Part shown: positions 7,697 to 52,010 of the stretch, one piece after another | How positions within the stretch are numbered: the first letter of the stretch is position 1 | Layout of the letters: each line of letters begins with the position of its first letter | Source: Mucilaginibacter sp. PPCGB 2223 | Lineage (GTDB): Bacteria > Bacteroidota > Bacteroidia > Sphingobacteriales > Sphingobacteriaceae | DNA length: 64,000 bases | NCBI RefSeq assembly: GCF_001705515.1 | Contig: NZ_MDJS01000001.1 | Span: 1,426,001 to 1,490,000 of the forward strand | Direction of reading: 5' to 3' | Position numbers and translations under genes: made by a program | The notes under the pieces: generated by a model | The model's database searches: none | The model's input: the letters and a program-made list of their open reading frames with translations, nothing else | Told to the model about the DNA's origin: nothing

Positions 7697-7738
7697 CCAC
7701 AGCAAGTCATAGAAATTAATCTAAGATCATCCTTAATA

Positions 7739-7752
7739 GTGACCAGCATCAT
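7739..7752. promoter_or_regulatory. Crp/Fnr-type operator before the first USP gene
   Basis: GTGAC-CAGC-ATCAT, an inverted TGA-N6-TCA, centred about 60 bases before the ATG at 7805. It belongs to the series of similar sites described in the findings. Confidence 0.5.
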
Positions 7753-7804
7753 CTATTCATAGTTCTTTAATATGGAATTTTGAGTTATACCAATAATTCA
7801 GACC

Positions 7805-12041: not shown

Positions 12042-12115
12042 ATCGTTATGGTTTTTAGTATAACAAAGTAACTGATAGGCGGTGAGGTACAGCATGATAC
12101 GATGCACGACAAAAA

Positions 12116-12129
12116 GTGATGCTGATCAC
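12116..12129. promoter_or_regulatory. Crp/Fnr-type operator before the alcohol dehydrogenase operon
   Basis: A perfect inverted repeat, GTGAT-GCTG-ATCAC, flanked by A on the left and T on the right. It is centred about 82 bases before the ADH start and just beyond the stop of the YceI-like gene. Confidence 0.7.
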
Positions 12130-12134
12130 TCTGT

Positions 12135-15427: not shown

Positions 15428-15457
15428 TGGGTATGATGATGGATATCAGCAATGTAT

Positions 15458-15471
15458 GTGATAAATATCAC
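15458..15471. promoter_or_regulatory. Crp/Fnr-type operator, USP 2 side
   Basis: GTGAT-AAAT-ATCAC, a perfect inverted repeat centred about 58 bases before the USP 2 start at 15522. Confidence 0.7.
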
Positions 15472-15521
15472 TGGTTCCGGTTTATTACGTATCGATATTT
15501 AAGGTATTAAATCATATTAAA

Positions 15522-18775: not shown

Positions 18776-19597
18776 TCAGGCGGGCAGCGATTGTATACCG
18801 CCGACCTTTTTTGTATCGTATGTAATAAAAGGCACATAGCTCACTTTGGCTATCTCCCCTTTAAAATACTCGTAATCGCCCCCCGGCATTTGCCAAACTG
18901 CCGAAAACTGCTGCGCATGTTTCTTACCGGAATACTTTAAATAAGCTTTCCATTTATACTGCCTGTAACTGCCATTTTTTGCAGTATAATACCGGTCTTC
19001 TGTTTCAAAGCAAACCGGGTAGCCGGTTTCGTCAAAATGAAACAGACCCGAGGCCGTAATATGGTTATGTGTGATGGTACCTTTTATGCAGAGATCATCG
19101 ACAACTTCCCAGCTTATGTAGTACTGCAATGCGTAGGCTGGCACAAGCATCGTTTCTGCGAGTATGGTAACCAATTCGGCTTTATCCATTTCGGGCCCTG
19201 CGGCTTTACTAATAGTAAATAGATTCAGTAGCTTAATGAGCATTATGCCTGTACCTTTAATATACTCGTCAACAGCATCAAAAGGGATAAAATTCCACAA
19301 AAGCGTTTTCATATACACCAGGCGTACAGGCTCAGGCAATACATTGGTTTGTATACAACGGATGTGGGTCCAATGCCTCCGCGGCGAAAATTTTAGCATA
19401 GCATTTTTCCACTCAATTTGCACTTCGCGTGTACACTCATCTCCGGTTATACCGCAAAAAGCCAGGTAACGTTGCAATATTGGTGGCAGTTCATCCGCCC
19501 GGCGGCAAACTTGTCCGCTCATCTTGAGCTTTTCGGCTGTGTTGAGCCCCGCATTATAAAATTCGCTTGCTGACGGTGAGAGCATACAATAAGTCAA
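18776..19597 (-). CDS. DUF6544-like protein
   Basis: A 273-residue protein that resembles the DUF6544/DUF6920-type hypothetical proteins. It has an N-terminal LPPILQRYLAFCGI block, a central KWNAML..SPRRHW-like region and a beta-rich C-terminal half with DETGYPVCFETEDRYY. The family name is from memory and uncertain. No catalytic motif or signal peptide is seen. The ATG at 19597 overlaps the stop of the 596-residue gene by four bases, so the two are translationally coupled; Met 5 is an alternative start. Confidence 0.6.
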   Translation of the reverse strand: MTYCMLSPSASEFYNAGLNTAEKLKMSGQVCRRADELPPILQRYLAFCGITGDECTREVQIEWKNAMLKFSPRRHWTHIRCIQTNVLPEPVRLVYMKTLLWNFIPFDAVDEYIKGTGIMLIKLLNLFTISKAAGPEMDKAELVTILAETMLVPAYALQYYISWEVVDDLCIKGTITHNHITASGLFHFDETGYPVCFETEDRYYTAKNGSYRQYKWKAYLKYSGKKHAQQFSAVWQMPGGDYEYFKGEIAKVSYVPFITYDTKKVGGIQSLPA

Positions 19598-21384: not shown

Positions 21385-21431
21385 ATTTTAAAAGTATTTG
21401 CCAAAACTATCGAGACGTCTGCGTTTAAAAA

Positions 21432-21445
21432 TTGACGACCGTCAC
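21432..21445. promoter_or_regulatory. Crp/Fnr-type operator between the 596-residue gene and ccoI
   Basis: TTGAC-GACC-GTCAC with a perfect TGAC/GTCA core. It is about 55 bases from the minus-strand start and 80 bases from ccoI, so it could serve both. Confidence 0.65.
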
Positions 21446-21517
21446 ATTTTAAAAAGTCTCCGGTCATTCTTTTCCACACTGCTCAATCTGATTTTTGGTC
21501 GCAAAAAAAAGTAAGAA

Positions 21518-23908
21518 ATGAAGCAAGGCGCAATCATCGAAAAAACCTGTTGTTACCACTGCGGCGACGAATGCACGACTACCGATTATGTAATTGACGA
21601 CAAGCAGTTTTGCTGTCACGGTTGCAAAAGCGTTTACCAGGTTTTATCTGCGAACCAGCTTTGCAGTTATTACAAGTACAACGATCATCCGGGCGCTACA
21701 CGGAATCGTACCGATAAACGTTTTGATTACCTGAGCGAACCGGGCATTATTAGCGAACTGCTCGATTACAGCGACGACCATGTAAGCATTGTTACCTTTT
21801 ACATTCCACATATCCACTGCAGTTCGTGCCTTTGGCTGCTCGAACAATTGAATAAAATCAACCCCGCCGTCCACTATTGCCGCGTGGATTTTTTAAAAAA
21901 ACAGTTGAGCATCCGGTTCGACCATCGTAAACTTAGCCTGCAGCAGTTGGTTGAGTTATTATTCGATATCGGGTATGAGCCGCTCATCAGTTTACACGAT
22001 ATCATCAAGGATCAAAACAATGCCAATAAAGATAACCTGGTACAGAAAATAGCGGTTGCAGGTTTTTGTTTTGGCAACGTGATGCTGTTAAGCTTCCCCG
22101 AGTATTTTGGATTGTCGGTTTACGAGCAAAATTTCAAACACTTTTTTGGATGGCTTAACGTACTGTTTTCCCTGCCGGTTGTTTTTTACAGTGGCAGGGG
22201 ATATTTTCAATCGGCATGGCAAAATCTGCGTAACAAGGTATTGAACATCGATTTCCCGCTTGCGTTAGGCATCGCGGTTTTGTTTTTGAGGACATTGTTT
22301 GAAGTAGCAAGCCATACCGGCGCCGGCTTTGCCGACACACTTTGCGGGCTTGTTTTCTTTTTGCTTGTAGGTAAGTTTGTGCAAAAGAAAACCTATCACC
22401 ACCTGTCGTTCGAACGTGATTACCGCTCGTTTTTCCCGGTTGCTGTAAGTACCATCACGCCAAACGGCGAAAAGCCCGTTAAGTTATCCGAATTATCTGT
22501 CGGGCATCGCATTATTATACGCAATAACGAAATAGTCCCGGCTGACGCTATACTGCTTAAAGGTAACGCACTGGTTGATTTTAGTTTCGTGACAGGTGAA
22601 ACACTGCCCGTCGGCAAGGTTTTGGGCGAAATTATATATGCAGGCGGCCGTCAGACCGGTGAGGCTCTTGAGATGGAGGTAGTGAAACCTGTTTCGCAAA
22701 GCTATCTTACACAACTGTGGAACAACGAAGCATTTTCCCGGCAGCAGGATGACCGGATGCGCACCTTCAATCAAAAGGTCAGCAAATATTTCACCATTGT
22801 TTTGCTCATTATTGCGTTTGGATCGTTGTCATACTGGCTGCCTTCCGATATCCGGCGCGGCTTTGCCGCGTTTACGGCGGTATTAATAGTGGCCTGTCCC
22901 TGCGCACTGGCATTGAGCACGCCGTTTACCATGTCGGCAGCGTTAAGCATTTTCGATAAAAACCTCTTCTATCTCAAAAATACCGCTGTAGTTGAGCAGA
23001 TGGCGGGCATTAACACCCTTGTATTTGATAAAACCGGGACTATTACCGCCAGCGATGACACCGAAATTAAACAGGAACTGGCTTTAACCGACAGGCAAAG
23101 GCAATTGGTATACAGCGCATGCATCAATTCGGCTCACCCGTTAAGCATGATGGTGTGCCGCGAATTAAAGGGAACCAAACGCCTCGAAACGTCAACCTAT
23201 CTCGAAATTCCGGGCAAGGGCATATTAGCAACAATAGACGGTGATGAGCTGCGCATTGGCAACTCCAAATTGGTTTTTGGGCAGCCGGGCGAAGCCGGCG
23301 ATGTTACCAAAGTGCACCTTATGATTAACGAACGGTATTTAGGGTATTTTGCTTTAGAACACCGGTACCGCCCCGGCCTTGATGTTTTACCAGGTTTGGG
23401 AAAAGATTACGATACCTACCTTTTATCGGGCGACAAAGATTATGAACGCAACAGGTTAAAATCCTTTTTCTCCGTGGAAGACAAAATGCTCTTCAACAGC
23501 TCACCGCAGGATAAGCTCGACTTTATTGACAAGCTGCAAACCGGCGGAGGCTGCGTAATGATGTTTGGCGACGGGCTCAACGATTCGGGCGCACTAAAAC
23601 AAAGCAACCTGGGTGTGGCCGTAACCGATAACGTCAACAACTTCACCCCCGGCAGCGATGCCATCCTGGATGGGAGATCATTTGATAAACTACCCTCATT
23701 TTTGAGGTTTTCTAAAGATACGGTAAATATCATCCACATATCTTTTTTGATTTCGCTTACCTACAATTTAATCGGGTTAAGTTACGCTGTAACCGGCAAT
23801 CTTTCGCCATTGATAGCGGCAATTTTAATGCCCCTCAGTACGGCAACCATCATTTCATTCACAAGCATCGCCACACATTTCATGGCAAAAAAACGCAGGT
23901 TAATATGA
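21518..23908 (+). CDS. ccoI: CcoI/FixI-type copper P1B ATPase
   Basis: A 796-residue P1B ATPase with an extended N-terminus: a cysteine-rich region (CCYHCGDEC and FCCHGCKSVYQ, about 11-45), an HMA-like domain with CSSCLWLLEQ (about 108-120), membrane helices, the actuator motif TGE, the ion-pathway motif CPC (ACPCALALSTPF), DKTGT phosphorylation loop and GDGLNDSGAL hinge. This is the CcoI/FixI type, which moves copper for assembly of the cbb3 oxidase. It heads the ccoI-ccoS-ccoNO-ccoQ-ccoP-ccoG-ccoH cluster, is preceded by a Crp/Fnr-type site, and overlaps ccoS by four bases. Confidence 0.95.
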   Translation: MKQGAIIEKTCCYHCGDECTTTDYVIDDKQFCCHGCKSVYQVLSANQLCSYYKYNDHPGATRNRTDKRFDYLSEPGIISELLDYSDDHVSIVTFYIPHIHCSSCLWLLEQLNKINPAVHYCRVDFLKKQLSIRFDHRKLSLQQLVELLFDIGYEPLISLHDIIKDQNNANKDNLVQKIAVAGFCFGNVMLLSFPEYFGLSVYEQNFKHFFGWLNVLFSLPVVFYSGRGYFQSAWQNLRNKVLNIDFPLALGIAVLFLRTLFEVASHTGAGFADTLCGLVFFLLVGKFVQKKTYHHLSFERDYRSFFPVAVSTITPNGEKPVKLSELSVGHRIIIRNNEIVPADAILLKGNALVDFSFVTGETLPVGKVLGEIIYAGGRQTGEALEMEVVKPVSQSYLTQLWNNEAFSRQQDDRMRTFNQKVSKYFTIVLLIIAFGSLSYWLPSDIRRGFAAFTAVLIVACPCALALSTPFTMSAALSIFDKNLFYLKNTAVVEQMAGINTLVFDKTGTITASDDTEIKQELALTDRQRQLVYSACINSAHPLSMMVCRELKGTKRLETSTYLEIPGKGILATIDGDELRIGNSKLVFGQPGEAGDVTKVHLMINERYLGYFALEHRYRPGLDVLPGLGKDYDTYLLSGDKDYERNRLKSFFSVEDKMLFNSSPQDKLDFIDKLQTGGGCVMMFGDGLNDSGALKQSNLGVAVTDNVNNFTPGSDAILDGRSFDKLPSFLRFSKDTVNIIHISFLISLTYNLIGLSYAVTGNLSPLIAAILMPLSTATIISFTSIATHFMAKKRRLI

Positions 23909-24063
23909 GTATCATTTATTTTTTGATCGGGTGCAGCGTTTTGCTGGCACTTGTGTTTTTAGCAGCTTTTTTCTGGGCACAACGCAGCGGGCAGAACGAT
24001 GATCTGTACACTCCCTCCGTAAGGATATTGCTCGAAGAGGATGATAATGAGCTTCAAAAGTGA
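23905..24063 (+). CDS. ccoS: cbb3 oxidase assembly protein CcoS
   Basis: A short gene of 52 residues. It begins MSIIYFLIGCSVLLALVFLA, one membrane helix, followed by a short tail with GQNDDLYTPSVRILLEED, which matches the CcoS/FixS pattern (GQfdD...PsvriL). CcoS is needed for cofactor insertion in cbb3 oxidases. It starts within the ccoI stop (ATGA). Its own stop codon lies inside a Crp/Fnr-type site that precedes ccoNO. Confidence 0.92.
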   Translation: MSIIYFLIGCSVLLALVFLAAFFWAQRSGQNDDLYTPSVRILLEEDDNELQK

Positions 24064-24073
24064 CTTCCATCAT
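24060..24073. promoter_or_regulatory. Crp/Fnr-type operator before ccoNO
   Basis: GTGAC-TTCC-ATCAT, overlapping the ccoS stop codon and centred about 80 bases before the ccoNO ATG. It has the same half-sites as the one before USP 1. Confidence 0.55.
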
Positions 24074-24117
24074 GTTTAAAACCAATTTATATCATTCCGT
24101 GCCCGATAGCGCACAAA

Positions 24118-24125
24118 TAGTTTTG
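24118..24125 (+). promoter_or_regulatory. Possible Bacteroidota -7 promoter element before ccoNO
   Basis: TAGTTTTG matches the Bacteroidota -7 consensus TAnnTTTG and lies about 20 bases before the ccoNO ATG. No good -33 element is visible at the usual spacing, so the call is weak. Confidence 0.3.
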
Positions 24126-24145
24126 CAACCATAACAATACAATAT

Positions 24146-26275
24146 ATGCAACCCGAAAAATTTTACTACGATAACAAGATCGTTCGCAACTTTGGCATAG
24201 CCACAGTTATCTGGGGGATAATAGGCATGCTGGTTGGCTTGATTGTAGCCATTCAGCTATATCATCCTGCGGCCAATATGGGCAACCAGTATACCACGTT
24301 CGGCCGCATCAGGCCGCTGCATACCAATGCTGTGATATTTGCCTTTGTGGGTAACGCCATATTTATGGGCGTTTATTATTCGCTTCAGCGCTTGCTTAAA
24401 GCGCGCATGTTCAGCGATATTTTAAGCAAGATCCACTTCTGGGGCTGGCAGCTCATTATTGTTTCGGCGGTAATAACCTTACCTCTCGGTTTAACTACTT
24501 CTCATGAATATGCCGAGCTTGAATGGCCCATTGATATCGCCATTACCCTGATATGGGTAGTATTCGGCATCAATATGTTCGGTACGATCTTCAAACGCCG
24601 TGAGCGGCATTTGTATGTAGCCATCTGGTTTTACATTGCCACGTTTGTAACCATCGCGGTATTACATATTGTAAACTCATTCGAATTACCTGTTTCTGCA
24701 TTTAAAAGCTATATGGTTTATGCCGGCGTTCAGGATGCCCTCGTTCAGTGGTGGTACGGGCACAACGCCGTTGCATTCTTTCTAACCACGCCATACCTGG
24801 GCATGATGTATTATTTCCTGCCTAAAATGGCAAACAGGCCTATTTATTCGTACAAGCTTAGTATACTCCACTTTTGGGCGCTGATATTTATCTATATCTG
24901 GGCCGGCCCGCACCACCTGTTGTATACCACATTGCCGGGCTGGGCACAATCGCTGGGGGTAGCATTTTCGGTAATGCTTATTGCACCAAGCTGGGGTGGC
25001 ATGATCAACGGTCTGCTGACATTACGCGGTGCCTGGGATAAAGTTCGCGACGATGTGGTGCTTAAGTTTATGGTTGTGGGCCTCACCGCTTACGGTATGG
25101 CAACCTTCGAAGGGCCCATGCTTTCGCTTAAACAAGTGAACGCCATTGCCCACTTTACCGACTGGATCATTGCACACGTACACGTTGGCGCTCTTGGCTG
25201 GAACGGTTTCTTAACTTTTGCCATCCTATACTGGCTGATACCGCGTATCTATAAAACCGAATTGTATTCTAAAAAACTGGCATCCTTCCATTTCTGGATC
25301 GGCACACTGGGCATCCTGTTTTACGCCATCCCCATGTACTGGGCTGGTTTTACACAAGGCTTAATGCTTAAAGAGTTCACACCCGAAGGTATACTCAAAT
25401 ATTCGAGCTTTTTAGAAACCACTTTACGCATCATCCCAATGCACGTGATGCGTTCGGTTGGCGGCAGCTTGTATCTATTGGGTGTGATTGTAATGGGGTA
25501 TAACCTGGCAAAAACTATGCTTGCAGGCAAGCTGGTAGCCAACGAGGCCGCACAGGCTATGCCGTTAGAACCCGTTCACACCATAACGCCCGAACTAAGC
25601 TGGCACCGCAGGCTCGAGCGCAAGCCTATCAAAATGATGCTGGCAGCACTGGTGGTGATACTCATCGGCACATTTATAGAGCTGATGCCTACGCTGACCA
25701 TCTCATCAAATGTACCAACTATTGCCAGCGTTAAGCCTTATACCCCGCTTGAGTTACAAGGGCGCGACATTTACATACGCGAAGGCTGCTCCAACTGTCA
25801 TTCGCAAACTATCCGCCCTTTCCGTTCTGAAACGGAGCGCTATGGTGAGTATAGCAAAGCCGGCGAATTTGTTTACGATCACCCGTTTTTATGGGGTTCG
25901 AAACGCACCGGGCCTGATCTGGCGCGCGAAGGCGGCAAGTACGGCAATGCCTGGCATTATAACCACCTGATGGATCCGCGGTTAATGTCGCCTGGCAGTA
26001 TCATGCCAAATTACGACTGGCTCATCTCGCAAACATTGGATACTTCGCTAACCGCCGCTAAAATAAATGCAATGCGCACACTGGGTGTACCATACCCCGC
26101 TGGTTACGATAAAACAGCCAATCGCGATTTGGATAAGCAAGCCGGGGTCATCGCCGATGACCTGGCTAAAAACCACATGAAAGTGATGAAAAACAAGGAA
26201 ATCATTGCGATCATAGCTTATTTACAAAGGCTCGGAACCGACATAAAAGCTTCAAAAACAGCTAACAACAATTAA
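24146..26275 (+). CDS. ccoNO: cbb3 cytochrome c oxidase, fused subunits I and II (CcoNO)
   Basis: A 709-residue fusion. Residues 1-470 are CcoN: heme and copper ligands are seen at His59 (RPLHTN), His206 (WYGHNAV), His256-257 (GPHHLL) and His344/346 (AHVHVG). After a linker and one more helix (about 495-520), residues 535-709 are CcoO, with the heme c site CSNCH (548-552) and a likely Met ligand in the PGSIMPNYDWL stretch. The complex reduces oxygen to water with high affinity at the inner membrane and pumps protons. N-O fusion is usual in Bacteroidota. Confidence 0.96.
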   Translation: MQPEKFYYDNKIVRNFGIATVIWGIIGMLVGLIVAIQLYHPAANMGNQYTTFGRIRPLHTNAVIFAFVGNAIFMGVYYSLQRLLKARMFSDILSKIHFWGWQLIIVSAVITLPLGLTTSHEYAELEWPIDIAITLIWVVFGINMFGTIFKRRERHLYVAIWFYIATFVTIAVLHIVNSFELPVSAFKSYMVYAGVQDALVQWWYGHNAVAFFLTTPYLGMMYYFLPKMANRPIYSYKLSILHFWALIFIYIWAGPHHLLYTTLPGWAQSLGVAFSVMLIAPSWGGMINGLLTLRGAWDKVRDDVVLKFMVVGLTAYGMATFEGPMLSLKQVNAIAHFTDWIIAHVHVGALGWNGFLTFAILYWLIPRIYKTELYSKKLASFHFWIGTLGILFYAIPMYWAGFTQGLMLKEFTPEGILKYSSFLETTLRIIPMHVMRSVGGSLYLLGVIVMGYNLAKTMLAGKLVANEAAQAMPLEPVHTITPELSWHRRLERKPIKMMLAALVVILIGTFIELMPTLTISSNVPTIASVKPYTPLELQGRDIYIREGCSNCHSQTIRPFRSETERYGEYSKAGEFVYDHPFLWGSKRTGPDLAREGGKYGNAWHYNHLMDPRLMSPGSIMPNYDWLISQTLDTSLTAAKINAMRTLGVPYPAGYDKTANRDLDKQAGVIADDLAKNHMKVMKNKEIIAIIAYLQRLGTDIKASKTANNN

Positions 26276-26279
26276 AGCC

Positions 26280-26462
26280 ATGTTTAAACAATTCACCGAA
26301 AATATACAGGGTAACCAGGTTTACCTTCTTTTCTCGCTGGCCATATTTCTTGTATTCTTCATTGTAGTTACGATAGTGCTGCTGCGTTTGCAGAAAAAAT
26401 ATGTCGACCACATGAGCGATTTGCCCTTGCAGGATAATTTGAGCAGTACAACACACAATTAA
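26280..26462 (+). CDS. ccoQ: cbb3 oxidase subunit CcoQ-like
   Basis: A 60-residue protein with a single membrane helix (about 14-38) ending in LLRLQKKY. Its position between ccoNO and ccoP matches CcoQ (subunit IV). The sequence itself is too short for a firm family match, so the call leans on context. Confidence 0.8.
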   Translation: MFKQFTENIQGNQVYLLFSLAIFLVFFIVVTIVLLRLQKKYVDHMSDLPLQDNLSSTTHN

Positions 26463-26475
26463 TATAATTACCGTC

Positions 26476-27372
26476 ATGAACCTGAAAAAAATACTGATAC
26501 TGACACCCTTGTTGCTGGTTATGCAACCGGTGTTGGCCGCCGACGACAATGAGGCTCCATCTAATTTAATGAACGTTATAGGCTATGGAGCCATACTTTT
26601 TACACTGCTACTATTCGTGGTGGTTTTATTAGTGCTTTTGCGCGCTGTAAGGGTGATGACCAGGGTTGCGTTAAAAAGCCAGGGATATACCGAAGAGCAA
26701 ATAGCTGCCGAACTACACCCGCCTAAAAAGGCTAAACGATCAAAAGAGGAAGTTTGGAATAAGCTGCTCTCGTTAAAACCGCTGTCGCAGGAAAAAGATT
26801 TGATTATGGAACATGAATACGACGGCATACAAGAGCTGGACAACCCTACCCCATCTTGGTTTATGGGTTTATTTTACACCACTATTGCCTTTGCCGCCTG
26901 TTATTTACTGATTTACCACGTTTTTGGAATAGGCCAGCTACAGTATGATGAATATAAAACCGAAGTTGCACAGGCTGAGATCGCTAAAAAAGAATACTTA
27001 AGCAAAGCGGCAAACCAGGTGGATGAAAACACAGTTAAACTAACCAAAGACCCGGCGGTGCTTGCTGCAGGACAGGTCATATTTGTAAGCAAATGCGCGC
27101 CCTGCCACGGCGACCACGCTCAAGGCAATGTTGGCCCTAACCTTACCGACGATTACTGGCTGCATGGCAATAAAATAAACGACCTGTTTAAAACTATCAA
27201 ATACGGTGTGCTGGCCAAAGGGATGCCGACCTGGGAAAAACAGTTGTCGCCGAAAGACATAGCTGATGTTGCCAACTACGTAAAATCATTACATGGCAGC
27301 CACCCGGCGGGTGCAAAAGAACCGCAGGGTATCAATGAACCTGAAGAATCAAATAAACTGGCCGCAAAATAA
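26476..27372 (+). CDS. ccoP: cbb3 oxidase diheme-subunit homologue CcoP, with a single heme c site
   Basis: A 298-residue protein. It has a signal-like first helix (about 5-21), a helix near 35-57, the CcoP N-terminal domain motif YDGIQELDNPTPSWFMGLFY followed by another helix, and one cytochrome c domain with CAPCHGDHAQGNVGPNL and a downstream GMPTW Met ligand. Proteobacterial CcoP normally carries two CxxCH sites; only one is present here. It passes electrons from the bc1/alternative complex III or soluble cytochromes to CcoNO. Confidence 0.93.
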   Translation: MNLKKILILTPLLLVMQPVLAADDNEAPSNLMNVIGYGAILFTLLLFVVVLLVLLRAVRVMTRVALKSQGYTEEQIAAELHPPKKAKRSKEEVWNKLLSLKPLSQEKDLIMEHEYDGIQELDNPTPSWFMGLFYTTIAFAACYLLIYHVFGIGQLQYDEYKTEVAQAEIAKKEYLSKAANQVDENTVKLTKDPAVLAAGQVIFVSKCAPCHGDHAQGNVGPNLTDDYWLHGNKINDLFKTIKYGVLAKGMPTWEKQLSPKDIADVANYVKSLHGSHPAGAKEPQGINEPEESNKLAAK

Positions 27373-27380
27373 CCCCGAAC

Positions 27381-28751
27381 ATGAACGCATTGCTTAACGC
27401 AAAAGAAAGTGGCCAACGGCGTTGGATGTATCCACAAGTAAAAAAAGGCACCTATTATAAATGGCGTGCCCGGTTAAGCTATGTTTATTTGATCTTCTTT
27501 TTTACGGGTCCGTTCTTACGCATCAATAGTCAGCCATTGTTGATGCTGAATTTTGTGGACCGCCAGTTCGTCCTGCTTGGCCAGGTTTTCTGGCCCCAGG
27601 ACATTTTTCTTTTCATGCTGGCATCACTGTTCTTTTTGGTGTGCGTGGTATTATTTACCATAGCGTTTGGCCGTATATTCTGCGGCTGGATATGCCCGCA
27701 AACCATCTTTATGGAAATGGTTTTCCGCAAGATTGAGATATGGATAGAAGGTGACGCCAACAAACGAAAAAAGCTTGATGCAAGCCCGTGGACCAACGAA
27801 AAAATAGTAAAAAAAGGTGGCAAACACCTGGCTTTTATTGTACTTTCCTTTTTAATCGCCAATACCTTTCTGGCTTATATCATTGGCAGCCAGGGCCTCA
27901 TCAGGATAATTACCGAGCCGGTGAGTATGCATTGGGTGGGCTTTTTAAGTATCTGGGTATTTACCGCCGTGTTTTACCTGGTATATAGCCAGGTGCGCGA
28001 ACTGGTTTGTACGGTGATCTGCCCGTATGGCAGATTACAAAGCGTATTGATAGATGAGCACACACTGGTTGTTGCTTATAACGATGTGAGAGGCGAACCC
28101 CGCGGCAAACTTGAACGCATACCCGATCCGGTAAACCCCAGGGGCGATTGCGTTGACTGCGGCCTGTGTGTGGCAGTTTGCCCAACCGGGATCGATATAC
28201 GTAAAGGCACCCAGATAGAATGTATTAACTGCACTGTTTGCATTGACGCCTGCGACCAGGTAATGGATAAAATTCATAAGCCCCGCAACCTGATCGGCTT
28301 TTATTCGGAAAATATGATACGGGTTGGCGAAAAACTATCTTTCACTTTGAGGATGAAGGCTTATACTGCGGTTATTGTGGTTTTATTGGGCGTGTTAAGT
28401 TACTTCGTATTTAGCCGTACCGATATGGATATGACCGTAATGCGCAGCGCCGGACTGTTATACCAGGAGCAAAAAGGTGGTTATATCAGCAATATTTACA
28501 ATGCCGATATCATTAACAAAACCGACAGGAAACATATCATCGCTATTAAACCGGATGACCCATCCATCAAAATAAAATATATACAGGCTCCGGGAACGAT
28601 AGGCAGCGGCTTATCGGCGAAAGCTGTTTTTTTTATGATGGTGCCGCAAACAAATATCCATACTGCTAAAACAGATATCCATCTGCAGCTTTGGATGGAC
28701 AATCGTTTAATTGAGACTGTTAACACCGCATTTATCGGACCTGTAAATTAA
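27381..28751 (+). CDS. ccoG: Cytochrome c oxidase accessory protein CcoG (FixG)
   Basis: A 456-residue membrane protein with about five helices and two [4Fe-4S] ferredoxin-type motifs (CVDCGLCVAVCP and CINCTVCIDACD). An early CGWICPQT motif and a C-terminal immunoglobulin-like FixG domain are also present. CcoG is a cupric reductase that helps copper delivery to the cbb3 centre. It is 9 bases after ccoP and 6 bases before ccoH. Confidence 0.95.
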   Translation: MNALLNAKESGQRRWMYPQVKKGTYYKWRARLSYVYLIFFFTGPFLRINSQPLLMLNFVDRQFVLLGQVFWPQDIFLFMLASLFFLVCVVLFTIAFGRIFCGWICPQTIFMEMVFRKIEIWIEGDANKRKKLDASPWTNEKIVKKGGKHLAFIVLSFLIANTFLAYIIGSQGLIRIITEPVSMHWVGFLSIWVFTAVFYLVYSQVRELVCTVICPYGRLQSVLIDEHTLVVAYNDVRGEPRGKLERIPDPVNPRGDCVDCGLCVAVCPTGIDIRKGTQIECINCTVCIDACDQVMDKIHKPRNLIGFYSENMIRVGEKLSFTLRMKAYTAVIVVLLGVLSYFVFSRTDMDMTVMRSAGLLYQEQKGGYISNIYNADIINKTDRKHIIAIKPDDPSIKIKYIQAPGTIGSGLSAKAVFFMMVPQTNIHTAKTDIHLQLWMDNRLIETVNTAFIGPVN

Positions 28752-28757
28752 AAAAAA

Positions 28758-29177
28758 ATGAACTGGGGAAAAGGAATTATCGGAGGCATGATCGCTTTCA
28801 TGCTTTTTATCATCGGGATGGGTATTTACATGTTTACTGTACCCGAAGATGGCTACGATCATCAATACTATGAAAAAGGTCTGTCGTTTAATAACGACTT
28901 TAACAAAGAACGGCAGGTAACAATAGACAATGCCCGACCGGTTATAACTGCCGACCGACAAGCTGTGGCCCTCACTTTTACGGTGCCGGCAAAAGGCGTG
29001 GTAAAATTTGTACGGCCATCCGACGCACACCTGGATCGCGAATATGAGTTCAATACCAATGGTGACGTTTTTTTACTATCGCGGCAGAATATTCCTGATG
29101 GTGAGTGGCAAGTAGTTATCGATTGGAAAAGCAATAACAAGGCTTACCTGTATCAGCAAAAATTTTATCTGAAATGA
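28758..29177 (+). CDS. ccoH: FixH/CcoH family assembly protein
   Basis: A 139-residue protein with one N-terminal helix (about 3-28) and a periplasmic domain typical of FixH: YEKGLSFNNDF, then a VKFVRPSDAHLDREYEF block and an end of beta strands. It stabilises or assembles the cbb3 complex. It overlaps the next gene by four bases. Confidence 0.9.
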   Translation: MNWGKGIIGGMIAFMLFIIGMGIYMFTVPEDGYDHQYYEKGLSFNNDFNKERQVTIDNARPVITADRQAVALTFTVPAKGVVKFVRPSDAHLDREYEFNTNGDVFLLSRQNIPDGEWQVVIDWKSNNKAYLYQQKFYLK

Positions 29178-32401: not shown

Positions 32402-32763
32402 ATTAACAGTTATGAAGTAGAGCAATACCCGGTTATACTCCGGTGATTTAATATTATTAAATGTAATTATTATTTTGATTATACAATACAATATCAAACA
32501 AAATCACAACTTTAATTATAGGTCATTTTTTAAATTAGAAATACATTAACGACAACCAATGTTTAGTTGTAAATATATTTCTTAACTTATATTATAAGTC
32601 TCTTTTTATTGCAGTGATCCAGCTCAGGCTGCATACCGTTTCTTTTTCTGCCCGGATGCAGAAAAATTCTCAAAAAGTGATTTAAGTCATTTTATCCGGT
32701 GCGCTTTCTCATGCCTTATGTTCAATCTGTTGCGCATTTTTGCTATATCAAAATGTATTAAGC
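32402..32763. other. AT-rich spacer between the six-PAS gene and the 115-residue membrane gene
   Basis: A 360-base divergent spacer that is AT-rich in its left two thirds. Apart from the Crp/Fnr-like site at 32679-32692, I see no open frame with a start, no repeat and no RNA structure. It probably holds both promoters. Confidence 0.6.
32679..32692. promoter_or_regulatory. Crp/Fnr-type operator before the 115-residue membrane gene
   Basis: GTGAT-TTAA-GTCAT (TGA-N6-TCA), A-rich on the left and T-rich on the right, centred about 79 bases before the ATG at 32764. Confidence 0.5.
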
Positions 32764-33306: not shown

Positions 33307-34677
33307 TTAAATAGCCATGCTGAATTGCTGGGTTGCAGGTTTGTCATTCCAGAGCCTTGCGTCAAACGCCATACAGATGTTCCGAAGGAATCGTTTACCA
33401 AGTGGAGTAACTTTCAGACCTGAGGAGTGCAATTCGACGAGTCCGTCTGTTGCCAAAGGCTCAAGGCGTTCAACAGCCTGCACTAATGCCATACAGGGTT
33501 CGGCAAAAAGGTTCCACTTTGTTTCTCCTTTACACATAATATTAAAAATATGATTGCGGATAACACTATCTTCTTTTGTTAAAACGTGGCCTTTAAATGC
33601 CGGCAGCTGGTTATCATCAATATAAGCATGGTAGGCTTCAACCATCTTTACATTTTGTGCGAAGGCATAGCCCGAATCGCTGATGGCCGATACCCCAAGC
33701 CCGATAAGCAATTGGGTTTGCTGGGTGGTATAACCCATAAAATTGCGGTGCAGTGTGCCATTCTTTTGGGCGATGCTCAATTCATCCTGCGGTAAAGCAA
33801 AATGATCCATACCTATTTCTTCGTAGCCGTAGGTTGCAAACATGCTGCGGCCAACCTCGTATAGCTTAGCTTTTTGTGGTGCGTCGGGCAAATCCTGTTC
33901 GGTAAACCGCCGCTGCCCGGGTTTAATCCAGGGCACATGCGCATAGCTGTAAAACGCTATCCGATCTGGCCGCAATTGTGCCACCAGTTGAACGGTATTG
34001 ATCAGCCCTTCGGTTGTTTGCAGGGGAAGGCCATATATCAGATCGTAGTTTATAGAAGTATAGCCTATTTGGCGGGCAGCTATGGTTACATCTCTAACTT
34101 GTTCGAAACTCTGATCGCGGTTGATGATAAAGCGGACTTGGGGATCAAAATCCTGTATACCGATGCTTACACGCCTGAAGCCCAGATCGTATAAGGTTTG
34201 CAGATGTTCGGTAGTGGTATTAGCTGGATGCCCCTCAAAACTAAAAGCAGCCGACGGGTGCACTTTGGCTTTTTGGAGAATGCCGTTTATGAGCATTCTT
34301 AAATTATCCGGGCTGAAAAAAGTAGGCGTGCCGCCACCTAAGTGGATCTCGCGTATAATCGGTACGGCTTCAAATACATCGAGATACATTTGCCATTCTT
34401 TTAATAAAGCGTTGATATACGGAACCTCAACACCATGGTTTTTTGTTATGCGGGTGTTACAGCCGCAATAGGTGCAAAGGTTTTCGCAAAATGGTAAATG
34501 CAGATAAAGGCTTATCCCTTCGGTTGTGTTGGTTTCGTCGAAAGACAGCCTGACAGATTGTTTCCACTGGCTAATATCAAATGAATCAACATGCCAGTAG
34601 GGCATTGTTGGATAGCTGGTATAACGCGGAGCAGCGACGTTATATTTGCCTGCCAGCTGATGCGGTAACATGGTCAT
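33307..34677 (-). CDS. hemN: Oxygen-independent coproporphyrinogen III oxidase HemN
   Basis: A radical-SAM enzyme of 456 residues from the chosen start (MTMLPHQLAGKYNV), which fits HemN N-termini; the frame runs 23 codons upstream to 34746 with no family similarity. The [4Fe-4S] motif is CENLCTYCGCN, preceded by the typical PRYTSYPTMPYW and followed by HLGGGTPTFF and GIQDFDPQVR. It makes protoporphyrinogen IX without oxygen, needed for heme supply in low oxygen. It follows the truncated dehydrogenase-like gene by 13 bases, downstream of a Crp/Fnr-type site. Confidence 0.95.
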   Translation of the reverse strand: MTMLPHQLAGKYNVAAPRYTSYPTMPYWHVDSFDISQWKQSVRLSFDETNTTEGISLYLHLPFCENLCTYCGCNTRITKNHGVEVPYINALLKEWQMYLDVFEAVPIIREIHLGGGTPTFFSPDNLRMLINGILQKAKVHPSAAFSFEGHPANTTTEHLQTLYDLGFRRVSIGIQDFDPQVRFIINRDQSFEQVRDVTIAARQIGYTSINYDLIYGLPLQTTEGLINTVQLVAQLRPDRIAFYSYAHVPWIKPGQRRFTEQDLPDAPQKAKLYEVGRSMFATYGYEEIGMDHFALPQDELSIAQKNGTLHRNFMGYTTQQTQLLIGLGVSAISDSGYAFAQNVKMVEAYHAYIDDNQLPAFKGHVLTKEDSVIRNHIFNIMCKGETKWNLFAEPCMALVQAVERLEPLATDGLVELHSSGLKVTPLGKRFLRNICMAFDARLWNDKPATQQFSMAI

Positions 34678-34690
34678 GCTTTTAGAATGA

Positions 34691-35134
34691 TTAGATGTTA
34701 GGGGCATTGGTGCGGCAGTTACGCGCACACGCACATGCGTCGCCAACGCATTTGTTGTTTTGCCACAGATCGAGGTTCGAAATGGTTTGATCGGCTATTT
34801 GCTGTAAAACTTCGGGCAACTGGCTGGCGCCTGCAGCGTAGCCCGGCACATTGGATATTTTAATGCCAAACCGTAACGCGGCATTCCTGTCTATATGATC
34901 CGTTTCGGCAGTACGTGTTACGATGAACCGAATGCCCATCAACGCCAGCTTTTCAATAACAGGGGCCCATACATCGTCATCGGTAAAAACAATCACAGCA
35001 TCTTTTCCCTTTGCGTAAGCAACCGTTTCTACACTTAAGGGGTTGGATATTAATGTTATATCGTGTTTTTTCCGATTGGCCCTGGCCAAATATTCTTTTT
35101 CGTATGCTTTTACACTGTAGGCTACCGCTTTCAT
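34691..35134 (-). CDS. Stand-alone D-lactate-dehydrogenase N-terminal-like domain with cysteine-rich tail
   Basis: A 147-residue protein starting MKAVAYSVKAYEKEYL, which matches the start of D-lactate (LdhA-type) dehydrogenases. It continues through VIVFTDDDVWAPVIEKL and ISNVPGYAAGASQLPEV but ends where the NAD-binding Rossmann domain should begin. The tail NKCVGDACACARNC holds four cysteines and no longer resembles a dehydrogenase. It cannot be a complete enzyme. The frame extends to 35200, but the Met at 35134 fits the family. First gene of a unit with hemN. Confidence 0.75.
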   Translation of the reverse strand: MKAVAYSVKAYEKEYLARANRKKHDITLISNPLSVETVAYAKGKDAVIVFTDDDVWAPVIEKLALMGIRFIVTRTAETDHIDRNAALRFGIKISNVPGYAAGASQLPEVLQQIADQTISNLDLWQNNKCVGDACACARNCRTNAPNI

Positions 35135-35204
35135 TCGCAATAATTTATTAAACAAAATTACCGCGTATCGATGGCTTGCAGAATGAGTTGCATCATCCAA
35201 AAAA

Positions 35205-35218
35205 GTGACCTAAGTCAA
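35205..35218. promoter_or_regulatory. Crp/Fnr-type operator before the hemN unit
   Basis: GTGAC-CTAA-GTCAA flanked by A6 on the left and T5 on the right. It overlaps the stop codon of the receiver-Crp gene and is centred about 78 bases before the dehydrogenase-like start. Confidence 0.7.
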
Positions 35219-36267
35219 TTTTTCATACGCATAAGGCGTTTTTCATCAAGTATGGTAATGATACTACCTTTTTTCTCTATCAACCCCTCTTCTTTAAAAT
35301 CCGACAGGGTACGGCTGACCGTCTCGGTAGCCATACCCGCCATGGCTGCAAGGTCCTCCCGGCTTATGCGGAAGTTCTCCGTAGGGATAGCCTGTTGCCT
35401 GTGCAGGCGCAAAATGGCCTCGGCCATGCGCTTGCGTACCGAGTTGTAGGCCAATTGTAAAAGTTGCTCTTCCTTTTCGCGGATATCTGCTGCCAGTAAT
35501 TTGATAAACTCGCGTGCCACCTCGGGATGATGATTTAGCAGCGGGTCGAGCACATCTTTCGGTATAAGGCACAGCATACTGTCTTCCAAAGCTGTAGCCG
35601 TATCACTATAGGCCTCGTTAGCCAGCATGGCATGTATGCCCAGGTAGTTATCATTTCCATAAATACCTGTCATCAGTTCGCGTCCGTCTTCGGCCAGTTT
35701 AACCGTTTTTACCCGGCCGCTTAAAACTATATGCAGGCCATTACCTCTATCACCCTCGTAATAAATCACCTGGTTCTTTTTAAACTGTCTGCTTTTACGC
35801 TCCTGTATTATTTTTTTAAGCTCGGCAAGGCCATTATTTTTTGCTATAAGTGTACCCAGGCTATCCAGCGAGCGGCTGTAATATTTCTGCTGAACCTCTT
35901 TCTTTTTCAAACGGCTTTCGATGGCGTTTAACAGGTCCATGTCGTCGAAGGGCTTCGTCAGATAATCATCGGCACCCATTTCCATTCCTTTACGCAGATC
36001 CAGCCGCTCGGCCTTTGCAGTTAAAAAGATGAACGGTATGGTTGCTGTTTCGGGATTTTTATTGAGCATATACAATACGCCGTAACCGTCCAGTTCGGGC
36101 ATCATAATATCGCAAAGTATAATATCGGGCAGGTTTTTTGTCGCAATATCGACGCCATTCTTACCATCTCCGGCTTCAAAAACCTCATAGCCTGCCAATT
36201 GCAGTATCTCAACCACGTTTTCGCGGATATCGTTGTTGTCTTCAATAATCAGTACTTTTTTACTCAT
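35215..36267 (-). CDS. Response regulator receiver fused to Crp/Fnr DNA-binding module
   Basis: A 350-residue regulator. Residues 1-120 are a CheY-like receiver with the acidic pair at 10 and 13, phospho-acceptor Asp53 (CDIMMPELDG), Thr83 and Lys105. Residues 140-265 are a cNMP-binding-type beta roll and long dimer helix; residues 270-340 are an HTH_Crp domain. The recognition helix ATETVSRTL (Glu315, Ser318, Arg319) has the E-x-x-S-R arrangement of FNR and not the R-E-x-x-G-R of CRP. There are no FNR iron-sulfur cysteines, so phosphorylation probably replaces direct oxygen sensing. Coupled by ATGA overlap to the FixL-like kinase. Confidence 0.92.
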   Translation of the reverse strand: MSKKVLIIEDNNDIRENVVEILQLAGYEVFEAGDGKNGVDIATKNLPDIILCDIMMPELDGYGVLYMLNKNPETATIPFIFLTAKAERLDLRKGMEMGADDYLTKPFDDMDLLNAIESRLKKKEVQQKYYSRSLDSLGTLIAKNNGLAELKKIIQERKSRQFKKNQVIYYEGDRGNGLHIVLSGRVKTVKLAEDGRELMTGIYGNDNYLGIHAMLANEAYSDTATALEDSMLCLIPKDVLDPLLNHHPEVAREFIKLLAADIREKEEQLLQLAYNSVRKRMAEAILRLHRQQAIPTENFRISREDLAAMAGMATETVSRTLSDFKEEGLIEKKGSIITILDEKRLMRMKN

Positions 36268-37451
36268 GATAATGAAAATGAAATGGTAAATAATGTTCCC
36301 TGGTTTATGTCGCTTTTAAAGCCGATGCGGCCATTCATTAAGTTTGTATAACGGGCAACTATGTTCAGGCCCAGCCCTGTTCCGGGTATGTTACCTGTGT
36401 TGTGCGCCCTGAAAAAGGCTTCGAACAAATGCTTTTGATCAGTCTCAGGTATGCCGATGCCATTATCTTTAATGGTGATGATACAGTCTGAAGAGCTGAT
36501 CTCGGTATTGAATTCGATGAACGTGTTTTCGCCCGAATACTTGATTGCATTCCCTATTAAATTGATAACACAGTTTTTAAGCAGGTTAGGATCGAGCTTG
36601 ATCACACTATGGGTGCCGGTGTGCTGGTAAATAATACTCTGGTTTTGTTTGGCCACCATCTGCATTTCTTCGGTGATCTCTTCGGCCAGTTTGACCAGGT
36701 CAAAGTTGACGAAGGTTGGCTCAACCTTACCAGCTTCCAGTTTTTCGAGTGAAAGGAAATCATTCAGGATAGTGGTCAGGTTACTCACCGCATTTTTTAT
36801 TTTAATAACATGTTTGGTAATGTTAGCGTTATCAAATGGTGCAGCATATTTATCAATAAGCGATGCCGATAATTGTACCGCGCTCAATGGTGTGCGAAAC
36901 TCGTGCGACGCCATAGATACAAAGCGGCTCTTTAACTGGCCCAGCTCTTTTTCTTTTTCCAAAGAGAGGCTTACTTCTTCTTTGGCTATTTCGAGTTCCA
37001 GCACCGATTTTTTTAACGACCGGGTACGCTGCTCAACTAATTCTTCTAAATGCAGGGCGTACTCTTTTAATGTTTCTTCGGCTTCTTTTTCGCGGGTCAG
37101 ATCGTGTATAAAACCGGTATATATCTTCCGGCCCGAATACTGCACTTCACTAACCCCAAGCCGGAAGGGGAACACAGTTCCGTCTTTACGCAACCCCTTT
37201 ACTTCGCGGCCCTTGCCAATGATATGCGGTTCGCCGGTGTGCTGATACCTTGCAATATATTGATCGTGCTGCTCCCTGTCTGGCGACGGCATTAAAACCG
37301 ACACATTTTGCCCGACTACCTCACCCGGTTCGCATTGAAAAAGTTTACATGCTGCAGGATTAATAGACTCTATCCTACCCCTGTCATCGATAGTAATAAT
37401 GCCATCTATTGCATTTTCAATAATTGCTTTCAACAGGGCAGCGTTTTCCAT
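36264..37451 (-). CDS. FixL-like heme-PAS sensor histidine kinase (kinase A)
   Basis: 395 residues from the chosen start MENAALLKAI; the frame runs ten codons upstream to 37481. The single PAS (about 1-125) follows rhizobial FixL closely. His62 in REQHDQY aligns with heme-ligating His200 of Bradyrhizobium FixL, His76 (EPHIIG) with His214, and Arg82 (GKGREV) with Arg220. A coiled coil (125-170) leads to HisKA with SMASHEFRTPL (His183) and an HATPase with NLIGNAIKYS, DNGIGI and GTGLGLN. No membrane segment is present. It should sense oxygen through heme and phosphorylate the receiver-Crp protein whose start overlaps its stop. A perfect Crp/Fnr palindrome lies about 88 bases upstream. Confidence 0.9.
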   Translation of the reverse strand: MENAALLKAIIENAIDGIITIDDRGRIESINPAACKLFQCEPGEVVGQNVSVLMPSPDREQHDQYIARYQHTGEPHIIGKGREVKGLRKDGTVFPFRLGVSEVQYSGRKIYTGFIHDLTREKEAEETLKEYALHLEELVEQRTRSLKKSVLELEIAKEEVSLSLEKEKELGQLKSRFVSMASHEFRTPLSAVQLSASLIDKYAAPFDNANITKHVIKIKNAVSNLTTILNDFLSLEKLEAGKVEPTFVNFDLVKLAEEITEEMQMVAKQNQSIIYQHTGTHSVIKLDPNLLKNCVINLIGNAIKYSGENTFIEFNTEISSSDCIITIKDNGIGIPETDQKHLFEAFFRAHNTGNIPGTGLGLNIVARYTNLMNGRIGFKSDINQGTLFTISFSLS

Positions 37452-37527
37452 AAGTATAAGCAGTTTGATGATTGTTATCACAAATATTGGAAATGTATAT
37501 CACTCAAAAAGTAATTATTTTCAGGTA

Positions 37528-37551
37528 AAAAAGTGATCCACATCACTTTTT
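37528..37551. promoter_or_regulatory. Long perfect Crp/Fnr-type palindrome before kinase A
   Basis: AAAAAGTGAT-CCAC-ATCACTTTTT, a 10-bp perfect inverted repeat with four-base spacer and the best site in the window (core 37533-37546). It is about 88 bases before the kinase A start and may also affect kinase B. Confidence 0.75.
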
Positions 37552-37719: not shown

Positions 37720-38967
37720 ATGAGCAAGGCTACCTTGTTAAAAGCCATTATACAAAATGTTGTCGATAGTGTTATCGTTATCGATCATCATGGTATCATC
37801 ATGTTTGTAAATCCAGCTGTATCAACCCTTTTTGGATATACAGAGGATGAACTCATCGGACAAAAAATAAATATGCTGATGCAAAAGGCCGATGCGCACC
37901 AGCATGACCATTATCTTTCGCACTATCAAATAACCGGCAAGGCCGCAATTATTGGGAAGGGCCGCGAAGTTACAGCTGTAAAAAAAGATGGCACTATATT
38001 TCCGATAAGATTAGCGGTAAGCGAGGCAAAATACAAAGGTAAACCGTTATATGCCGGCCTCGTGCACGATCTGACCAAAGAAAAGCGGGCCGAAGCAGAT
38101 TTAAAAAAACATAACAGCGAACTGGAAGCCATTGTAGACGAGCGGACTGTTTTTTTGAAAAATATTGTGCAAACACTCGAACAGGCAAAAGATGAAGTAA
38201 GCATCTCACTTCAAAAGGAAAAGGAGGTGAATCAGCTGAAAACACGTTTTGTTTCGATGGCGTCGCATGAGTTTAGGACGCCACTTAGCGGCATACAGCT
38301 CTCTGCATCACTAATCGAACATTACTACGATAAACTCGACAAACAAAAAATATTGAATCATTTAAAAAAAATCAAGGCTGCGGTGGGCGACCTGACATCA
38401 ATACTAAACGATTTTTTATCCGTCGAACGTATAGAAGCCGGGAAGCTCAAGCCATCGTACAGTAATTTTGACCTGCACGAGATTTGCCTCGAAGTTATCG
38501 AGGAAATGCAGTTGCAGATCAAAGATGGTCAGAAAATATCCTACCACCACAAACGCGGCAGTACAAATATTTGCCTGGATAATACCTTGTTACGGCATTG
38601 CCTGATCAACCTTCTATCAAACGCCATTAAATATTCTGACGAAAACGGCCAGATTGACATTATAACAGATGTTGATCAGCAAAATTACTATATAACTGTT
38701 AAAGATAATGGCATAGGTATACCCGAAGACGAGCACGATAAATTGTTCGAGGCGTTTTTCAGAGCACAAAATACGGGCACGGTTCAAGGTACCGGACTTG
38801 GCTTAAACATTGTTAAACGCTATGCCGAACTGATGAACGGCAGCATTACTTTTGAAAGCATGCAGCACAAAGGCACCTCATTTACCCTGTCCTTCCCGGT
38901 ACACCAAATGGAGCGGTTATCGACGACACACCCCGCTTTTGAGCCAACAAACCAGGAATGTGGATAG
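37720..38967 (+). CDS. FixL-like PAS sensor histidine kinase (kinase B)
   Basis: A 415-residue paralogue of kinase A, colinear throughout. PAS about 1-125 keeps His62 (AHQHDHY, the FixL heme ligand) and Arg82 (GKGREV). The equivalent of FixL His214 is Ala76 (GKAAIIG). HisKA with SMASHEFRTPL (His183) and a complete HATPase (NLLSNAIKYS, DNGIGI, GTGLGLN) follow. No response regulator is adjacent on its strand; it could act on the receiver-Crp protein. It is divergent from kinase A, and the shared spacer holds two Crp/Fnr-type sites. Confidence 0.88.
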   Translation: MSKATLLKAIIQNVVDSVIVIDHHGIIMFVNPAVSTLFGYTEDELIGQKINMLMQKADAHQHDHYLSHYQITGKAAIIGKGREVTAVKKDGTIFPIRLAVSEAKYKGKPLYAGLVHDLTKEKRAEADLKKHNSELEAIVDERTVFLKNIVQTLEQAKDEVSISLQKEKEVNQLKTRFVSMASHEFRTPLSGIQLSASLIEHYYDKLDKQKILNHLKKIKAAVGDLTSILNDFLSVERIEAGKLKPSYSNFDLHEICLEVIEEMQLQIKDGQKISYHHKRGSTNICLDNTLLRHCLINLLSNAIKYSDENGQIDIITDVDQQNYYITVKDNGIGIPEDEHDKLFEAFFRAQNTGTVQGTGLGLNIVKRYAELMNGSITFESMQHKGTSFTLSFPVHQMERLSTTHPAFEPTNQECG

Positions 38968-51567: not shown

Positions 51568-51697
51568 TTAGATGTTAAAGCCCGAACTTTTTTTATCCAT
51601 ATAATGTCCTTTTTTAATTTTAACCTCGATTAATTACCATAAATATATCTGAATTAACATTTAATTGCAATTACTTTTACATTTTTTAGTAATTAAT

Positions 51698-51711
51698 ATG
51701 ATATAAATCAT
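51698..51711. promoter_or_regulatory. AT palindrome, candidate nitrogen-control site
   Basis: ATGAT-ATAA-ATCAT, perfect inverted repeat, 220 bases before the porin start. A near-copy (ATAATTTAAATCAT) precedes nirB. Base composition makes chance occurrence likely. Confidence 0.3.
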
Positions 51712-52010
51712 TTTAAAATTGATTTTTTAACAATTTATTAATTAAAAAAGCAAAAATTGATGGTAAAAAATGATTTTATTAAAAAAATACCCACAAAACC
51801 ATATCTATTTTCATTGATAAATAACAAAAAAGCTACAAAAACGATGTTAAAAACGCGTGAAACAGTCAATTTTAGTCAATCATTTGAAAAAAAGGTGATA
51901 AAAACGCGGTAAACACAAAGAAAATTAATGATTATACGATTTTATCGATCATAAAATCTACAATTCTTAAAAAAAAAGACGAAAATCGATCAAGAAGTAT
52001 TGTTTTTTAT

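Follow-up and report, generated by a model that had tools for sequence, protein, structure and literature searches.

The window analysed here, a stretch of 64,000 nucleotides from Mucilaginibacter sp. PPCGB 2223 (contig NZ_MDJS01000001.1, positions 1,426,001 to 1,490,000), contains a two-gene operon on its reverse strand. The upstream gene encodes a soluble histidine kinase of FixL type with the architecture PAS-HisKA-HATPase_c (kinase A, 36264..37451), the downstream gene a response regulator (35215..36267) in which a receiver (REC) is followed by a cNMP-binding domain and a Crp-type helix-turn-helix, referred to as the fusion in the following. In a preliminary description made from the sequence alone, the pair was read as a shortened FixL-FixJ-FixK pathway, with a FixL-like kinase gating an Fnr-type regulator of cbb3 oxidase genes. 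At the sequence level this reading is supported by the conservation of the pair, by a palindrome with largely common geometry in the promoters of the kinase-fusion operon, ccoNO and the genes leading to hemN, and by the observation that, among family genomes with cco genes, the fusion and an FNR-like regulator hardly ever occur together.

Kinase A and the fusion regulator

The fusion joins receiver and Crp/Fnr module in a single chain of 350 residues, as had been described from its open reading frame (ORF); Pfam placed Response_reg at residues 5-117 (2e-28), cNMP_binding at 160-247 (1.7e-20) and HTH_Crp_2 at 280-347 (2.3e-19). The receiver, previously called complete on account of Asp53, Thr83 and Lys105, keeps all response-regulator residues (E9, D10, D53, T83 and K105), with D10, D53, T83 and K105 invariant across 41 aligned relatives. 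The module was also said to lack iron-sulfur cysteines; indeed C52 and C233 are the sole cysteines of the protein, so that the four Fe-S cysteines of FNR proper are missing. Its output part, cNMP plus HTH_Crp_2, differs from the NarL/LuxR-type DNA-binding domain of FixJ. The cNMP-binding fold and the Crp helix-turn-helix assign the fusion to the Crp-Fnr family, below the NCBIfam equivalog cutoffs of FNR (NF008365, 105.8 vs 228 bits) and FixK (NF050806, 75.9 vs 300). The recognition helix aligns with the etisr of A. fischeri FNR, and the phosphate-binding R-S/T cassette of CRP was not apparent by eye in the fusion sequence.

The AlphaFold2 (AF2) model of the fusion had a mean predicted local distance difference test (pLDDT) of 81.8 with a confident receiver and a Crp module, connected by a helix of residues 109-143. 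Given a predicted template modelling score of 0.42 and the poorly defined residues 128-141 (pLDDT <50), the relative placement of the domains in the model is unreliable. When the model was compared with the PDB by Foldseek, the 50 matches listed included single Crp/Fnr proteins such as FixK2 and no receiver-Crp chain.

Kinase A comprises 395 aa counted from the ATG at 37451, to which all residue numbers refer; the ORF tool places the start at GTG 37481, and a -7-like promoter box at 37481..37488 favours the ATG. Its gene overlaps that of the fusion by four bases (36264-36267), in line with the preliminary description. The heme-pocket residues reported there (His62, His76, Arg82) were recovered by alignment with Bradyrhizobium FixL, in which H62, R68, H76 and R82 correspond to H200, R206, H214 and R220; H62 and R82 would represent the proximal histidine and the distal arginine of a heme-PAS domain. 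The PAS domains of the two proteins are identical in 57/124 positions, the best PDB match of kinase A is the FixL PAS domain (E 2e-32), and no strongly hydrophobic segment was found (maximum 19-residue Kyte-Doolittle value 1.2).

A paralogue, kinase B (37720..38967 on the forward strand, 216/395 residues identical to A), is transcribed divergently. It keeps the equivalents of H200 and R220 and carries H instead of R206 and A instead of H214; FixL was among the best PDB matches for the PAS domains of both kinases. No receiver gene of its own lies beside kinase B. A further protein with about six PAS domains (29861-32497, reverse strand) gave a weak HisKA match and no ATPase domain in the Pfam search, and looks like a kinase that has lost its catalytic part.

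Palindrome sites and promoter geometry

In many relatives, the palindrome AARTGAYNNNNRTCAYTT is found again upstream of the kinase-fusion operon, at a similar distance from kinase A. A matrix built from 33 hand-picked kinase-promoter sites of other genomes gave nine sites with a score of ≥12.5 in the window (0.6 expected at ≥12 under a Markov null), all of them just upstream of a gene: kinase A, the adhP-type alcohol dehydrogenase (Adh), a small membrane protein, ccoNO, the half-dehydrogenase-hemN operon, a porin, ccoI, a Usp gene and a Usp/YceI pair. The perfect palindrome AAGTGATCCACATCACTT of the kinase A-fusion promoter (37531..37548; no strand is assigned to any palindrome) scored 24.9. 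The sites before Adh (12114..12131), the small membrane protein gene at 32764 (32675..32692) and ccoNO (24058..24075, overlapping the 3' end of a 52-aa ccoS-like ORF) scored 20.5, 19.7 and 17.2, followed by the half-dehydrogenase/hemN site, which shares a few bases with the end of the fusion gene (35203..35220, 17.0), and the ccoI site (21430..21447, 13.9). Weaker sites precede the Usp gene at 7805 (7737..7754, 13.6) and lie between YceI (14725-15351) and Usp at 15522 (15456..15473, 12.5). Plain FNR boxes (TTGATNNNNATCAA) were considered and discarded as the weaker signal, with six mostly intragenic one-mismatch and no perfect occurrences in the window.

The spacing between these sites and the Bacteroidota -7 element, TAnnTTTG, was analyzed in 121 distinct promoter segments of five gene groups with a site score of ≥11. 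Of 48 exact TAnnTTTG boxes at any position, 46 had a distance of 51 or 52 nt to the centre of the site; with up to one mismatch, a spacing of 51 nt was seen 71 times and one of 52 nt 15 times (167 at any position), whereas shuffled segments gave at most 7 such matches at any one position. In the window, boxes with up to one mismatch were present at this spacing in the promoters of kinase A (37481..37488, reverse strand, one mismatch, 52 nt), Adh (52 nt), the membrane protein and ccoI (both 51 nt), and exact boxes in those of the half-dehydrogenase/hemN operon (TAATTTTG, 35153..35160, reverse strand, 52 nt) and ccoNO (TAGTTTTG, 24118..24125, forward strand, 51 nt); none was found at 51-52 nt in the two Usp promoters. 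Class I CRP/FNR promoters have their site centred near -62. If the -7 element spans about -12 to -5, the site centre would likewise come to lie near -62, and the mostly fixed spacing suggests a class I-like geometry. A class II placement (-41.5), guessed from the distance between site and ATG, was dropped in view of the boxes at 51-52 nt.

The own genome (5.48 Mb) contains 22 sites with up to one mismatch, compared with 13 for a control pattern; six of the 22, including both perfect ones, are located in the window, which makes up 1.2% of the genome. Since the consensus was drawn after seeing the kinase-promoter and other intergenic window sites, this enrichment is not fully independent, unlike the matrix test on other genes. 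The core palindrome combined with an exact box at 50-53 nt occurred five times in the genome (control 1), three times in the window. Over the 154 family genomes with the fusion, site plus exact box gave 666 matches, or 4.32 per genome (control 0.77). Two site-plus-box matches, at 1616564 and 1617153 of the own genome, are near a gene for a single receiver (L002, G000:C1:1617217-1617603) that is 46% identical to the fusion receiver.

Conservation of the sites was followed at orthologous genes in 80 loci of named records; these species are related and some records near-duplicates, so that the counts are not independent events. The half-dehydrogenase gene was the most consistently preceded by a site (45/49 orthologues), followed by ccoNO (16/18), the gene of a 596-aa protein (12/13, about 60 nt from the start) and the small membrane protein gene (10/14). 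Permuted matrices reached the counts of these four genes in 0/300 cases. In a second ccoNO set, the 30 best family-genome matches, which partly overlap the first, 25/26 loci with a readable start had the site 79-93 nt upstream. Sites also preceded LD-transpeptidase (9/12), YceI of the 14725 type (6/12) and Usp genes (22/40, with paralogues likely mixed). They were rare before hemN itself (1/22), ccoG (2/25) and the fusion itself (3/79), and absent from the orthologue loci of ccoP and ccoH (0/23 each), SulfExp (0/24), NrtC (0/13), porin13331 (0/10) and YceI of the 12135 type (0/7). Kinase A had a site in 40/72 loci, a partly circular count because the training sites came from kinase promoters. 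Among all new evidence, this conserved putative palindrome regulon with its promoter geometry lends the strongest support to the proposed switch.

The cco genes had been placed next to the kinase-fusion pair. They are in the window (21518-29177), but at a distance of 6-14 kb and on the other strand, and five genes separate ccoH from the fusion gene. The cluster consists of a ccoI-type heavy-metal P-type ATPase gene (21518..23908), the ccoS-like ORF mentioned above, ccoNO encoding fused cbb3 oxidase subunits I/II (24146..26275; PRK14485, 1299 bits, cutoff 1080), and ccoP, ccoG and ccoH (26476..29177, with FixP_N and FixH detected by Pfam), all on the forward strand; ccoP scored below its NCBIfam cutoff (118.7 vs 180). 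On the reverse strand, a stand-alone N-terminal 2-hydroxyacid dehydrogenase domain with a Cys-rich tail, the half-dehydrogenase (34691..35134, probable ATG at 35134), is followed downstream by hemN for oxygen-independent coproporphyrinogen III oxidase (33307..34676; TIGR00538, 428 bits, cutoff 325), the start of which was assumed at 34676 (34746 according to the ORF tool). The 596-aa protein (19594-21384, reverse strand) matched neither Pfam nor NCBIfam, and searches of the 64-kb window for tRNA and Rfam families found none.

Distribution of the fusion and its probable exchange for an FNR-like regulator

In a census of 201 family genomes, the fusion was detected in 154 (E ≤1e-40), and 56/395 genomes of the phylum, all within the class of the window, contained it as well. 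The latter number was reduced from 66, as 10 matches covered the receiver only; six of these loci were fetched, and all five with a readable frame end like histidine kinases. A match on an Azospirillum plasmid (81% of the query) was also rejected: it has 25% identity and starts in a short annotated response regulator gene (447151-447507 of the record), and no fusion is annotated in this region. Among the best 80 of at least 580 matches, named carriers included Mucilaginibacter, Pedobacter, Flavobacterium, Chryseobacterium, Epilithonimonas, Dyadobacter and Arcticibacter, the five closest fusions (81-82% identical) all being from Mucilaginibacter-named records. The fusion also occurs in at least six plasmid records from Hymenobacter, Runella and Spirosoma; five annotate it as a 'response regulator' and one as a 'transcriptional regulator', and in five of these six, among the matches listed, a sensor kinase or PAS protein lies under the match. 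On the Hymenobacter swuensis plasmid pHsw1 (L286), fusion and PAS kinase adjoin two group III truncated hemoglobins and a P-type ATPase. This genome is not alone in having the architecture, which is widespread in the family and extends to further families within the class.

Receiver-Crp fusions beside FixL-like kinases, for which a genome search had been suggested, were found in abundance. We compared 175 fusion loci, mostly chosen by similarity to the protein of the window, so that proportions among them do not reflect the phylum. In 159/175 the fusion gene is overlapped or immediately preceded by that of a kinase, and the other 16 have none directly upstream. After removal of six loci with a repeated fusion end, 169 unique loci remained, with 153 distinct fusions next to a kinase. 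One wrong-strand row, L058, was omitted from set A2. The adjacent kinase was of FixL type in 114 of the 153 by our own criteria, namely the H200 and R220 equivalents, an IIG-type motif and a PAS domain ≥36% identical to that of Bradyrhizobium FixL. The other 39 had different PAS kinases, four of which look FixL-derived yet miss the criteria (L043, L111, L121, L123). An FNR-like E-T/S-x-S-R recognition helix was present in 111/114 fusions with a FixL-type kinase and an ExxIR helix in 33/39 of the others, which form, by sequence, a second branch paired with PAS kinases that have no FixL signature. On a FastTree tree with the helix residue masked, the helix label changed twice and the kinase label six times; these few changes make the association a clade-level event instead of independent repeats, and independent contrasts between kinase type and recognition helix gave no informative pairs. 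The proximal histidine is replaced by Q in L121 and L123 and, in a doubtful alignment, by Y in L043; in L121 and L123, perhaps also in L043, its loss with retention of the FNR-like helix in the fusion might reflect a change of signal. The conservation of the kinase-fusion pair in so many genomes excludes chance.

We further asked which regulator accompanies ccoNO (E ≤1e-200) where the fusion is absent. Of the 149 family genomes with ccoNO, 139 have the fusion and 10 do not. All 10 of the latter encode an L229-type Crp/Fnr protein (E ≤1e-45), compared with only two of the 139 (G029 and G058); the 10 genomes belong to four genera and hence represent a handful of events. The three regulators of this type that were displayed share Cx2Cx8C and a later Cys113, an FNR-like cysteine pattern, and in six genomes (G004, G010, G033, G046, G058, G060) some 3 kb separate the gene from ccoNO within one contig. 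In five of six fusion-less ccoN loci no palindrome was found near 80 nt, and the sixth locus is truncated. Another palindrome of the window, ATATGATATAAATCATTT (51696-51713, about 220 nt before the porin gene of a nitrate cluster), is closer to that of the fusion-less genomes than to the palindrome of the fusion and may be a site of another regulator. Four closely spaced N-terminal cysteines occur in the Crp/Fnr paralogues L004/L210 and their relatives L211, L213 and L223, possibly additional Fe-S or redox sensors.

A proposed phosphorylation-gated Crp/Fnr switch and its known counterparts

Taken together, a heme-PAS kinase that directly gates the receiver-Crp/Fnr fusion for low-oxygen genes is the best and a rather likely explanation of these data, and the kinase-fusion switch probably drives the high-affinity respiratory oxidase in Mucilaginibacter and its relatives. 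According to this model, O2 binding would keep the soluble heme-PAS kinase A, perhaps together with B, inactive. At low O2 the kinase would autophosphorylate and hand the phosphate to Asp53 of the fusion, and phosphorylation of the receiver would favour an active dimer of the attached Crp/Fnr module, independently of an Fe-S cluster and, probably, of cAMP. The dimer is predicted to bind AARTGAYNNNNRTCAYTT about 62 nt upstream of the transcription starts and to activate the kinase-fusion operon itself, ccoNO(PGH), the half-dehydrogenase-hemN operon and further low-oxygen genes (Adh and part of the Usp and YceI genes). With somewhat less assurance, on balance still in favour, we propose that this two-protein heme-kinase/phospho-gated Fnr switch, with its defined palindrome and class I-like geometry, replaced both the FixJ-FixK relay and Fe-S FNR as master low-oxygen regulator in the family and its relatives, and that, at the same cbb3 genes, some lineages use the cysteine-bearing FNR-like protein in its place.

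Several observations weigh against this model. Kinase A reached 155.9 bits compared with the NCBIfam FixL cutoff of 850 (NF041777) and was therefore classed as a FixL-like sensor, not FixL proper; cco genes lay within 10 kb in only 25/54 long FixL-type loci, and the association of kinase type with recognition helix goes back essentially to one clade-level event. The site was present before ccoI in 0/4 orthologues tested and before Adh in 2/11, most being without it, and in the kinase promoter it was found in 24/29 Mucilaginibacter-named loci but only 16/43 elsewhere. The 47 family genomes without the fusion, which are often smaller, also exceeded the control for site plus exact box (54 matches, 1.15 per genome; control 0.49), where another regulator with a similar promoter layout may act. 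Five of six fusion-less ccoN loci have a related, ATATGATWWAWRTCATAT-like palindrome 227-279 nt upstream, and two other Crp/Fnr paralogues in the own genome, with EENVIR and ETVFR helices, could read the TGA-N6-TCA core. Finally, we infer that heme is bound, that phosphate is transferred and that the fusion binds DNA.

Some of this evidence invites other explanations. Heme PAS domains bind several gases, and heme-pocket positions vary among the partner kinases, some of which have no proximal histidine in the alignment (L121, L123 and, doubtfully, L043). The module might accordingly be built as described but respond to NO, CO or redox, or the kinase might act mainly as a phosphatase, making the fusion a repressor relieved at low oxygen; this appears unlikely, as several target genes are classic low-oxygen genes and a site that precedes the -7 box at a mostly constant, class I-like distance points to activation. 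Still less probable is a genuine palindrome regulon read by another Crp/Fnr protein while the fusion controls something else. The two paralogues, of which the ETVFR protein has four N-terminal cysteines, and the palindrome before fusion-less ccoN genes would fit such a regulon, but the palindrome stands in the promoter of the fusion's own operon and, among genomes with cco genes, the FNR-like regulator is nearly confined to those without the fusion. Moreover, genome G021 has the fusion and no paralogue of the four-cysteine type (E ≤1e-20; the EENVIR type was not searched there), yet a site-plus-box match occurs just beside its fusion gene. That the receiver is a dimerisation module or served by other kinases, as the second branch with non-FixL PAS kinases and the 16 loci without an adjacent kinase could suggest, is improbable given the kinase next to the fusion in 159/175 loci and the retained catalytic residues.

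Direct gating of the fusion by the heme-PAS kinase, if true, would put a Crp/Fnr activator under the control of phosphorylation instead of cAMP or an Fe-S cluster, and many Bacteroidia would gain a defined oxygen-sensing route to cbb3 respiration. Kinase-gated and cysteine-bearing regulators would constitute a natural swap at the same target genes, and with exact binding sites and promoters predicted, every step is testable in cultured soil bacteria. A receiver-Crp regulator with a FixL-like kinase was undescribed in the titles and abstract openings among the full-text matches listed, which does not imply absence from print; the pair is real and widespread, and represents an apparently uncharacterised variant of FixL-FixJ-FixK signalling.

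FixL-FixJ-FixK2 of Bradyrhizobium and Sinorhizobium is a three-protein oxygen cascade onto cbb3 oxidase genes. Like the pair described here, it has a heme-PAS histidine kinase upstream, an Fnr-type activator downstream and cbb3 oxidase targets. In contrast, the pair has neither a FixJ of REC-NarL type nor a separate fixK step; with receiver and Fnr-type module in one chain, the transcriptional relay is removed. The hFixL of Rhizobium leguminosarum is a hybrid. This FixL-type sensor acts via FxkR on FixK and fixNOQP, FxkR inducing fixK (PMC7888657); it likewise connects a FixL-type sensor to an Fnr-type FixK and fixNOQP, but three steps remain there. FNR of A. fischeri (PDB 5e44/5cvr) resembles the fusion in its Crp/Fnr fold, E-T-x-S-R recognition helix and low-oxygen role, whereas it senses O2 by an Fe-S cluster and the fusion has a receiver domain in place of those cysteines. 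The FNR-like cysteine regulators (L229, L219, L218), found where the fusion is absent and in six genomes close to ccoNO, differ from it by Cx2Cx8C...C113, an ETAIR helix and the lack of a receiver.

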